Source of the DNA: Chitinophagaceae bacterium
Lineage (GTDB): Bacteria > Bacteroidota > Bacteroidia > Chitinophagales > Chitinophagaceae
Assembly: GCA_947455605.1 (NCBI GenBank)
Contig: CANGOX010000003.1
Span: 1 to 64,000, forward strand
DNA length: 64,000 nt
Direction of reading: 5' to 3'
Of the stretch, positions 33,284 to 37,580 are shown in pieces; within the stretch, counting starts at the first letter, position 1, and every line of letters begins with the position of its first letter. The notes below the pieces were generated by a model. That model was not told the DNA's origin. It was given only the letters and a program-made list of their open reading frames with translations, and did no database searches. The translations under genes were made by a program, and so were the position numbers.

Positions 33284-33736
33284 TTACTCCTTGTTTTTTG
33301 AATCGATGCAGATCGTTACCGGGCCATCGTTGAGCAAAGCTACCTGCATATCTGCACCAAAAATACCTGTTTGAACTTTTTTGCCAAGGTCCTGTTCAAG
33401 CTGCCCAATCATCTTTTCATATATCGGTATCGCGAAATCGGGTTTAGATGCCTTGATATACGAGGGTCTATTCCCTTTTTTGGTACTGGCATGAAGGGTA
33501 AACTGGCTTACCAGTAAAATATCCCCATTTACTTCTTTTAAACCCAGATTCATTACACCGTTCTCATCATTAAAAATCCGGATGTTAACGATCTTATTAC
33601 TCAGCCAGCTGATATCCTCATCTGTATCAGAATCTTCAATACCCATTAATACCAACAAGCCTGTACGGATAGCACCAGTTACCACATCATCTACAGTAAC
33701 CGACGCTTCTTTTACCCTTTGTATAACAATTCTCAT
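33284..33736 (-). CDS. dtd: D-aminoacyl-tRNA deacylase
   Basis: MRIVIQRVKEASVTVDD, LLVSQFTLHASTKKGNRPSY, LNDGPVTI. Confidence 0.95.
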   Translation of the reverse strand: MRIVIQRVKEASVTVDDVVTGAIRTGLLVLMGIEDSDTDEDISWLSNKIVNIRIFNDENGVMNLGLKEVNGDILLVSQFTLHASTKKGNRPSYIKASKPDFAIPIYEKMIGQLEQDLGKKVQTGIFGADMQVALLNDGPVTICIDSKNKE

Positions 33737-33768: not shown

Positions 33769-34179
33769 ATGATGAAGATAGACATTACACCCGAAATTCA
33801 GTTCCAGACGGCCCGTAGTGGCGGTAAGGGTGGGCAAAACGTGAACAAGGTAGAAACCATGGTGGAAGGCCGTTGGGAGGTAACAACCTCTTTATTGGTA
33901 ACTGAAGAACAGAAATTACGCATTAAAGAAAAGTTACAGAATAAAATAACTGATGAGGGGTTCCTGCTGGTAAAATCTCAATCAGAAAGATCGCAATTAG
34001 GCAATAAGCTGGAAGTGGTCAAAAAAATGAATCAATTGGTAGGTAATGCGCTGGTAAAACAAAAGATCCGCCGTGCCACCAAACCTACCAAAGCTTCTAA
34101 GGAAAAAAGAATAGAAAGTAAGAAACGAAATACATTTACCAAAGCGCAAAGAAGAAAAGTTAACAGGAACGATTACTAA
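33769..34179 (+). CDS. arfB: ArfB/YaeJ-like peptidyl-tRNA hydrolase (ribosome rescue)
   Basis: ARSGGKGGQNVNKVET GGQ motif, basic C-terminal tail. Confidence 0.9.
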   Translation: MMKIDITPEIQFQTARSGGKGGQNVNKVETMVEGRWEVTTSLLVTEEQKLRIKEKLQNKITDEGFLLVKSQSERSQLGNKLEVVKKMNQLVGNALVKQKIRRATKPTKASKEKRIESKKRNTFTKAQRRKVNRNDY

Positions 34180-34904
34180 TGAATAAAGCAAACAACACAA
34201 TATTTGTTCTGGCCTTTTGCTGGATAATGCTGGCGATACCGATAGCCGGCTTTTCACAAAAACAGGTTACGCTTATCTTTCATCACAAAGCGGGAAATGA
34301 AGACCTGGTTTTGGGAAATAGTTACACAACAGCTCTGGGCGAAAAAATTACAGTTCAGCGATTTCGGTATTATATCTCCAATATTTCGATAACTGATAAA
34401 CAGGGAAAAACAACCCTGCTCCCTGTTGAATATTTTTTAGTGGATGAAGCTGATTCTCTTTCAAAGATCATCAACCTATCTGTTCCCGATAATACTATCG
34501 GTTCTATCCAATTCCTGTTAGGTGTTGATAGTATTCGTAATGTATCCGGCATACAAACCGGCGCACTCGATCCGATGCGGGGAATGTTCTGGACATGGAA
34601 CAGTGGTTATATCATGGCCAAGCTGGAAGGCATTTCAGAATCCTCCACCATCGCAGGTCATTATTTCACTTATCATATAGGTGGATTCAAAGGCCCGAAC
34701 AGTACTTTGAAAACCATTACACTCAATATTCCGCAAACAACAACGGTTCAGGAACTGCATATAAATGCAGACATCAATACCTGGTTTAAGAACAGTTCAG
34801 AGATACGTACATCTGAAACCCCGGTTTGCCATATGCCCGGACCATTGGCAAAAAAGATCGCAGATAATTACAGTTCCATGTTTTCAATAAACACCATACG
34901 TTGA
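34179..34904 (+). CDS. MbnP-like periplasmic protein
   Basis: Signal peptide; VQRFRYYISNISI, DPMRGMFWTWNSGYIMAKLEG; start codon overlaps arfB stop (TAATG). Confidence 0.82.
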   Translation: MNKANNTIFVLAFCWIMLAIPIAGFSQKQVTLIFHHKAGNEDLVLGNSYTTALGEKITVQRFRYYISNISITDKQGKTTLLPVEYFLVDEADSLSKIINLSVPDNTIGSIQFLLGVDSIRNVSGIQTGALDPMRGMFWTWNSGYIMAKLEGISESSTIAGHYFTYHIGGFKGPNSTLKTITLNIPQTTTVQELHINADINTWFKNSSEIRTSETPVCHMPGPLAKKIADNYSSMFSINTIR

Positions 34905-34905
34905 T

Positions 34906-35979
34906 ATGAAGGGAATGAAAAAAATAATCGTTATCCTTTCAATTCTTACAACCGCCATCAGTTGGGTAAGTATAGATACCCTATACCGGAAACCTAAACC
35001 GGTGCCCTTCCCTGTTCCCAAAGGATGGCCACAACCTGTTTATGATTTTTCAAAAAACCCCTTAACTGAAGAAGGCATTGCACTTGGGAAAAAATTATTT
35101 TACGATACAAGGTTGAGTAAGGATGGCGAAATCTCCTGCGCTTCCTGTCACCAACAGTTTGGTGCGTTCAACACCTACGATCATAATCTGAGTCACGGGT
35201 TCAATAATTCCTTAACCACCCGTAATGCCCCTGGTTTATTTAATCTTGCCTGGCAAAAAGAATATATGTGGGATGGAGGAATCAATCACCTCGATCTACA
35301 ACCTCTTGCTCCCATTACCGCAGAAAATGAAATGGCAGAGACGATAGAGAATGTGATCAATAAATTAAAGTTGGATAAGGAATATCAACAATTATTCAAA
35401 GCGGCTTTTGGTGATGAAACGATCAATACACAACGGCTTGGTAAAGCCATCAGCCAGTTTGAACTGCAACTGGTTAGCAGCAACAGCAAATATGATAAAG
35501 TAATGCGTGGTGAAGCGGCTTTTATACTGCCCGAACAATTGGGCTATGATATCTTTAAAAAGAAATGCATTACCTGCCATTCAGAACCCATGTTCACAGA
35601 TTATTCATACCGGAACGTAGGTCTACCCATAGATTCCTATTTAAAAGACTTCGGCAGAATGAAGATCACCGGCGACCCTGCTGATTCCTTAAAATTCAAA
35701 GTACCCAGTCTGCGTAATGTGGCCATGACCTTTCCGTACGGCCACGACGGCAGATTGTTCTCTTTAATGAGTGTTTTTGAGCATTACCGGAAAAACATGG
35801 TGGTAAGTGCCACTACAGATCCTTTGCTAAAGAATAAAATGGCTTTATCCAATTACGAGATCGGTCAATTGACGGCATTTTTATATACTTTAACAGATTC
35901 CAGTTTCCTGAAAGACCCAAGGTTTGCCCCGCCGGGTAATGAAAATTCAGGTAAGCTACCGGCAGATATTCACCGGTAA
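34906..35979 (+). CDS. diheme cytochrome c peroxidase family (MauG/MbnH-like)
   Basis: Two heme motifs ISCASCHQQF and KKCITCHSEPMF; TTRNAPGLFNLAW, KVPSLRNVAMTFPYGHDGR. Confidence 0.92.
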   Translation: MKGMKKIIVILSILTTAISWVSIDTLYRKPKPVPFPVPKGWPQPVYDFSKNPLTEEGIALGKKLFYDTRLSKDGEISCASCHQQFGAFNTYDHNLSHGFNNSLTTRNAPGLFNLAWQKEYMWDGGINHLDLQPLAPITAENEMAETIENVINKLKLDKEYQQLFKAAFGDETINTQRLGKAISQFELQLVSSNSKYDKVMRGEAAFILPEQLGYDIFKKKCITCHSEPMFTDYSYRNVGLPIDSYLKDFGRMKITGDPADSLKFKVPSLRNVAMTFPYGHDGRLFSLMSVFEHYRKNMVVSATTDPLLKNKMALSNYEIGQLTAFLYTLTDSSFLKDPRFAPPGNENSGKLPADIHR

Positions 35980-36074: not shown

Positions 36075-37580
36075 TTGAGCGGTATTAAGAAATTAGCAGG
36101 ACAAACGATGTGGTATGGAGTTAGCTCTATAGCAGTTAAGTTCATTGGCTACCTGATCACACCCTTGCTTACTTATTCAAGTCATGTAAAAATTGCCGAT
36201 TTTGGAAGACAGGGCCTATTGTATTCTACCATCCCGGTATTGAGTATCATTTTTACTTACGGATTTGAAACAGCCTATTTTCGGTTTTCTGCCAAACCGG
36301 AATATAAAAAATCAATTTATAGTACTGCCTTCCTTTCCATTTTATTTTCAACTGTTATCTTTTCTTTGATATTGTGGTATTGCCGTAGTTCTTTAGCTGT
36401 GATCACCGGTTTCCCTGATATTCCACAAATAGCCCAGTTCACCATCTTTATTATTACCATTGATACTTTGAATAAGATTCCTTTGGCCAGGCTTCGCCAG
36501 GAGGAACGTCCGCTTAAATATGCATTCGTAAACATATCCGGCGTATTTGTAATGATCTCACTGGTTTGGTTCTTCGTTAATTATTGTCCTGCACAGATCG
36601 CTAAAGATCCGCAAAGCTGGGTAAGCAGTTTTTATGACAACAACAAGAATCCGATAGTTTATGTTGCCTTTGCAAATGTGATTCAAAGTATCGTAACCCT
36701 TTTATTACTGGGAAAAGAGATCGCGAGGGTACGATTAATCTTTAACACTAAACTCTGGAAAGAGATGATGATATATGCCATGCCTTTATTGATTGTTGGG
36801 CTTGGCGGTATTGTTAACGAAACCTTTGACAGGTTGATGATCAAAGCCTGGTTACCGGGAACAGAAGAGTTCAGAAACGAACAGGTAGGTATTTACAATG
36901 CCTGTTATAAACTATCCTTACTCATTACATTGTTTGTACAGGCATTTAAAATGGGGGCAGAACCCTTCTTTTTCAAACAGGCCGAAGGGCAGAACCCGCA
37001 AAAAGTATATGCCCGCGTAATGAAATTTTTTGTGATCGTGGTAACTACTATGTTTCTGGCAGTAAGTCTGTTCCTCCCTGTATGGTCAAGACTGATTGGT
37101 GAAAATTATAGATCAGGGCTTGCGATTGTTCCTGTATTACTAATAGCCAATATTTTTCTGGGTGTTTACTATAACCTCAGTATCTGGTTCAAACTAACCC
37201 ATCGAACCATTGCAGGCACTTACATTACATTGATAGGAACTGCTATTACCATTGGCATCAATTATTTCTTTATCCCTTTGATCGGTTATATGGCAGGAGC
37301 ATGGGCTACTTTCTTTTGTTATGGAACTATGATGGTGATCTGTTATAAGTGGGGACAAAAAGCCTATCCAATTCCTTATGTAACTAAAAAGATGATCGCG
37401 TATGGTGTGATCGTTCTTCTATTATTTTTCATTCACAAAGGCATAACCTATTTTATTCCACAGGTATATTTTAGTTTGAGTTTAGGTTTTATATTTTTAT
37501 CTGCCTATGTATGGTTCATTCTGTTAGTTGAAAAGAAAGAATTTAAAAAACTACCCATCATTGGTAAATACATCCGATAA
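36075..37580 (+). CDS. lipopolysaccharide/polysaccharide flippase (MATE/MOP superfamily), TTG start
   Basis: Approx. 12-14 TM segments; KKLAGQTMWYGVSSIAVKFIGYLITPLLT. Confidence 0.85.
   Translation: MSGIKKLAGQTMWYGVSSIAVKFIGYLITPLLTYSSHVKIADFGRQGLLYSTIPVLSIIFTYGFETAYFRFSAKPEYKKSIYSTAFLSILFSTVIFSLILWYCRSSLAVITGFPDIPQIAQFTIFIITIDTLNKIPLARLRQEERPLKYAFVNISGVFVMISLVWFFVNYCPAQIAKDPQSWVSSFYDNNKNPIVYVAFANVIQSIVTLLLLGKEIARVRLIFNTKLWKEMMIYAMPLLIVGLGGIVNETFDRLMIKAWLPGTEEFRNEQVGIYNACYKLSLLITLFVQAFKMGAEPFFFKQAEGQNPQKVYARVMKFFVIVVTTMFLAVSLFLPVWSRLIGENYRSGLAIVPVLLIANIFLGVYYNLSIWFKLTHRTIAGTYITLIGTAITIGINYFFIPLIGYMAGAWATFFCYGTMMVICYKWGQKAYPIPYVTKKMIAYGVIVLLLFFIHKGITYFIPQVYFSLSLGFIFLSAYVWFILLVEKKEFKKLPIIGKYIR

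Follow-up and report, generated by a model that had tools for sequence, protein, structure and literature searches.

The closest described systems to the gene pair reported here are the MbnP-MbnH pairs of Methylosinus trichosporium OB3b and Methylocystis, in which mbnP is followed by mbnH. OB3b MbnP is represented in the PDB by 7L6G, while entry 6e1c is presumably the corresponding MbnH. Kynurenine is reportedly formed from the first tryptophan of a WxW motif in MbnP. A tyrosine as the distal ligand of the second haem is the mark of the protein-modifying branch of di-haem enzymes, as known from MauG, which modifies tryptophan residues of its partner protein to form the tryptophan tryptophylquinone cofactor in methylamine dehydrogenase. 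Methanotrophs also possess MopE/SACCP and CorA/CorB, secreted or surface copper proteins with a tryptophan-derived kynurenine and a partner gene encoding a di-haem CCP/MauG enzyme (PMC3912023, PMC3423442). MbnP is not markedly similar in sequence to MopE or CorA, and MbnP-MbnH pairs were stated in 2013 to be conserved far beyond methanobactin producers (PMC3621798).

Within the window, by which we mean the entire 64,000-nucleotide stretch of Chitinophagaceae DNA analysed, three forward-strand genes form a tight string headed by arfB (33769-34179), followed by mbnP (34179-34904) and an mbnH-like gene encoding a di-haem enzyme of the CCP/MauG superfamily (34906-35979). The arfB product is an alternative ribosome-rescue aminoacyl-tRNA hydrolase with a GGQ motif that matched PF00472 and scored at equivalog level against NF006718 (114.7 bits; cut-off 100). 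Re-reading of the sequence agreed with the original prediction that the genes abut closely: the arfB stop codon (TAA, 34177-34179) shares one nucleotide with the mbnP start codon (ATG, 34179-34181) in the overlap TAATG (34177-34181), and the ATG of the di-haem gene at 34906 follows the mbnP stop codon (TGA, 34902-34904) after a gap of 1 nt, with a second in-frame ATG at 34915 as an alternative start. Judged from this gene order, the three genes are probably co-transcribed. The string is flanked by a divergent dtd gene for D-aminoacyl-tRNA deacylase (33284-33736, reverse strand), conserved at many relative loci, and by a conserved downstream gene for a Wzx-like polysaccharide flippase (36075-37580, forward strand; PF01943).

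The window MbnP, which carries an N-terminal signal sequence, matched PF20243 across profile positions 2-189 of 189 with 175.9 bits (gathering cut-off 27; E 1.1e-51). An AF2 model of the protein, built from 22 window and related sequences (mean pLDDT 87), was used in a PDB fold search that returned E <0.001 for 7L6G only, represented by six chains of M. trichosporium MbnP (E 8.5e-10, probability 1.00, TM 0.59-0.65 on the query), whereas single-sequence and profile searches of PDB sequences with the same protein gave no MbnP match. An endolysin PDB match at E 0.013 was rejected as chance. Identity to characterised-type MbnPs was approximately 17-21% in an alignment of 14 sequences. The score of 45 bits against the NCBIfam equivalog TIGR04052 (MbnP_like_WxW) lies below the cut-off of 140, and the protein was therefore assigned to PF20243 and not to the equivalog; the MbnPs of Chondrinema and D. 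radiodurans likewise fall under this cut-off.

The WxW motif of the window MbnP (M136-F-W138-T-W140) is encoded at 34584-34598 on the forward strand, with the W138 codon at 34590-34592 and the W140 codon at 34596-34598. Both tryptophans were invariant in an alignment of 29 Bacteroidota MbnPs and, together with G143, H166 and G168, in the 14-sequence alignment, where M136 was nearly invariant; the latter spans MbnPs of Bacteroidota, Deinococcus, Trichormus, Paracoccus, Ideonella and Pseudoalteromonas as well as those of methanobactin loci in Methylocystis. The original prediction had proposed these two tryptophans as candidates for modification, and by alignment they are the conserved WxW motif of the MbnP family, common to MbnPs of Methylocystis methanobactin operons; the misalignment that it had named as a refuting result did not appear. 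As W138 occupies the first position of the motif, it, rather than W140, is the predicted kynurenine precursor. Conversion of W138 and binding of Cu(I) are predicted from homology, with H166 (34674-34676, forward strand) as a candidate copper ligand.

The mbnH-like gene product matched PF03150 (CCP_MauG) with 180 bits (cut-off 25.6; E 5.7e-53), and a profile of 20 relatives placed 6e1c ('Di-heme enzyme') first in the PDB at E 9e-67, ahead of MauG and all cytochrome c peroxidases. Together with the PF20243 and 7L6G fold matches, this result upheld the MbnP-like and MbnH-like identities originally given to the two proteins. Both CXXCH motifs that had been described for the enzyme were present on the forward strand, CASCH at 35137-35151 for attachment of haem 1 and CITCH at 35566-35580 for haem 2, with Cys and His invariant in both enzyme alignments. 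Y294 (35785-35787, forward strand), similarly invariant in both, aligned to the Tyr of 6e1c and to the Met of peroxidases 1iqc and 3o5c, the axial position being Met in bacterial cytochrome c peroxidases. This predicted axial tyrosine supports assignment of the enzyme to the MauG/MbnH type and not to the peroxidases. W122 (35269-35271, forward strand), which we take to be the inter-haem Trp position of MauG/CCP, was invariant in one enzyme alignment and not strictly kept among Bacteroidota relatives. The enzyme scored 201 bits over the full profile of TIGR04039 (MbnH family di-heme enzyme), below the cut-off of 363, compared with 485-559 bits for Methylocystis and Trichormus enzymes, and 179 bits against TIGR03791 (MauG), below the cut-off of 444.

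Two further observations concern enzymes of this type. The window's own genome contains a second, diverged di-haem CCP/MauG-like gene (L079:3055-4185 on G000:C6) on a long tree branch, to which mbnP is not linked. Additionally, in four plasmid records (L056:5910-7061, L059:4885-6045, L060:4834-6003 and L062:4854-6125) the gene after mbnP is labelled 'methanobactin export MATE transporter MbnM'. The first two of these scored 559 and 494 bits on TIGR04039, indicating MbnH di-haem enzymes and an annotation error in the label, and the other two align as the same di-haem enzyme.

In comparison to the OB3b and Methylocystis pairs, the window pair shares the MbnP fold, the WxW motif, the conserved His, an adjacent di-haem enzyme with a (here predicted) axial Tyr and the order mbnP-mbnH; it differs in lying behind arfB with no methanobactin operon, in scoring below the NCBIfam equivalog cut-offs at lower similarity, and in a C-terminal C-H in MbnP where theirs have C-M. 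The pairs of Chondrinema (L057) and D. radiodurans (L058) are alike in having a PF20243-type protein with WxW beside an mbnH-like gene and scores under the NCBIfam cut-offs, but these pairs are not arfB-linked, and the D. radiodurans locus includes CopC and CopD. MopE/SACCP and CorA/CorB would work in the same manner as the window pair but belong to a different protein family. MauG resembles the window enzyme as a di-haem enzyme with a Tyr axial ligand, but differs in its cofactor product, and the window enzyme falls short of the MauG cut-off.

The original prediction had found no methanobactin precursor. A search of the whole genome (99.4% complete) for the MbnB family (PF05114) gave no match; given this completeness, the result supports absence of a methanobactin operon. 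PF20243 proteins were identified in 145 of 200 Chitinophagaceae genomes and in 187 of 247 genomes of the class. An mbnH-type enzyme occurred in 144 of the 145 MbnP-bearing family genomes and in 24 of the 55 MbnP-less genomes (24 with, 31 without; Fisher p 3e-20, shared ancestry ignored). The name 'MbnP family protein' is already used for such genes in RefSeq-derived plasmid records. The central claim, an MbnP-MbnH pair in a genome lacking methanobactin, is thus correct but already familiar, because the pair is common in the family, its wider occurrence was already stated in 2013 and kynurenine proteins of the MopE/CorA type are known.

Our preferred reading, which we hold to be probable, is that the window pair is an MbnP-MbnH pair in which W138 would be oxidised to kynurenine for a Cu(I) site and that its order behind arfB was inherited; the modification, the metal and the role are what we infer from related proteins. 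Both MbnP and the di-haem enzyme would be exported to the periplasm, where peroxide or an oxidant would activate the enzyme, which would then draw electrons from W138 and convert it to kynurenine. The kynurenine would complete a high-affinity Cu(I) site with conserved side chains, of which H166 is a likely partner and M136 or the C-terminal C-H-M segment a possible one, and MbnP may thereby serve in copper handling or delivery without methanobactin. A single event in an ancestor of the family would have brought the pair to its place immediately after arfB, and since this order was kept arfB would share the transcript with no tie to ribosome rescue needed.

The fate of the WxW motif where mbnH has been lost provides an evolutionary test that supports the enzyme-substrate relation without experiments. 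Intact WxW was found in 46 of 48 arfB-linked MbnPs with an adjacent mbnH and in one of four without (Fisher p 0.0018), while H166 was intact in 46 of 48 and none of four, respectively (p 6e-5); across all 160 distinct MbnPs, retention of W138 was 124 of 125 where mbnH adjoins and 28 of 35 where it does not (p 1e-4), shared ancestry being ignored in all three comparisons. The four enzyme-less arfB-linked genes belong to four different genera, and the sole one keeping WxW, L140, comes from genome G065, where its contig also carries an mbnH at another position. Two arfB-linked MbnPs with an adjacent mbnH (L071 and L162) have lost the second or both tryptophans. Such a pattern of loss would be predicted were W138 the target of the enzyme and the site useless in its absence, and it lends support to this relation. 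A more general idea, that all MbnPs lacking an adjacent mbnH lose WxW, proved wrong, as 25 unlinked MbnPs keep the motif with no adjacent enzyme. All MbnP-bearing family genomes but one have mbnH somewhere, so action in trans is possible.

The coupling to a ribosome-rescue factor had been described as unexpected. Among the 150 arfB genes listed from 200 family genomes, 31 have mbnP and then mbnH immediately downstream, which is more than chance, and by genus labels these 31 genomes represent at least 20 genera; once further loci were read, the distinct mbnP genes linked to arfB numbered 48 with mbnH next to them and four without, and the arfB-linked loci extend to at least 23 genera after adding G077, G062, G072 and G167 and counting G134. 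A tree of 61 enzymes gathered those linked to arfB into one group (support 100/94) with a single unlinked member (L039) inside, and two changes of the arfB-link label suffice on this tree compared to 19 expected with shuffled labels. Several genomes have arfB immediately ahead of the flippase gene, with no mbnP-mbnH pair in between. The coupling itself is real, but what had seemed unexpected is, as read from gene order and tree, a family-wide ancestral order of single origin and not a new system, and nothing found points to a functional tie. The simplest reading is that the pair landed between arfB and the flippase gene in an ancestor and has since been kept or lost.

A functional link, in which ribosome rescue and the copper-site pair would be co-expressed since copper or peroxide stress stalls ribosomes, appears very unlikely to us. 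Tight coupling would favour it, in the form of the 1-nt arfB/mbnP overlap, which recurs at relative loci L036, L041 and L052, and so would the retention of the order across at least 23 genera. Against it stand the 119 of 150 listed family arfB genes with no linked mbnP, the lack of any arfB-mbnP link outside the family among the arfB positions and the first 150 mbnP positions listed for 247 genomes of the class (compared by eye), the many MbnP-MbnH pairs located elsewhere and the evidence for one origin with vertical inheritance; moreover, dtd (opposite strand) and the downstream flippase gene are conserved in the same block at relative loci, which indicates general synteny. Another alternative is that tryptophan is oxidised as in MbnP but that, in the window clade, the resulting site binds a different metal or has a different function. 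No copper gene was recognised among the neighbours of the window locus, while CopC and CopD genes adjoin the pair in D. radiodurans and PCuAC and SCO genes adjoin that of Paracoccus, so that the metal at the window site is taken from the family. The ligand set may also differ in the window clade, as C-H-x-P-G replaces the C-M of MbnPs from methanobactin operons. We consider this alternative improbable, given that H166 and M136 are kept and that copper genes are neighbours elsewhere at the level of the family.

It is also conceivable, if unlikely, that the enzyme works as a conventional bacterial cytochrome c peroxidase and removes H2O2, with MbnP as its partner or electron donor and the tryptophans structural. 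A single Pfam family holds both CCP and MauG enzymes, and 1iqc was the best single-sequence PDB match, but the window enzyme and every aligned relative have Tyr in place of the axial Met, 6e1c came first in the profile search, and WxW conservation tracks the presence of the enzyme gene. The enzyme-only loci favour such a role: in ten genomes an mbnH-like gene lies beside arfB with mbnP missing there (L064-L067, L082, L083, L085, L086, L088 and L095), and six of these genomes had no PF20243 match at all (G039, G053, G020, G075, G107 and G005), a permissive profile search for MbnP being likewise empty in G039 and G053. All ten of these enzymes have the two haem motifs, and Y294 is kept in the four checked (L064-L067). 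Such loci would make sense if the enzyme acted like a peroxidase or had another substrate, and we regard a second, MbnP-independent substrate of the arfB-linked enzyme as a tentative possibility, somewhat doubtful at present.

MbnPs outside the arfB-linked clade were also surveyed for their neighbours. Three such loci (L074, L076 and L078) combine MbnPs with unnamed exported proteins and with small exported proteins that bear a conserved C-(N/C)-G-K-C motif, and these gene sets are possibly a separate Bacteroidota metal-handling operon; none of the small neighbours of non-arfB MbnPs received a copper-related name from Pfam (DUF6370, DUF4625 and unnamed). At L078, two diverged tandem MbnP paralogues (L078:510-1295 and L078:1451-2221) adjoin a WxW MbnP and have a shifted Trp (SMWFG) with WxW absent, and these are possibly unmodified relatives.

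In summary, the MbnP-MbnH pair of the window locus confirms how commonplace predicted kynurenine-type copper sites are among Bacteroidota, a group remote from the methanotrophs. The enzyme-only genomes make the question of what else MbnH modifies a testable one, and if a substrate independent of MbnP were true, the enzyme would be a broader tryptophan-modifying enzyme with a target other than MbnP.
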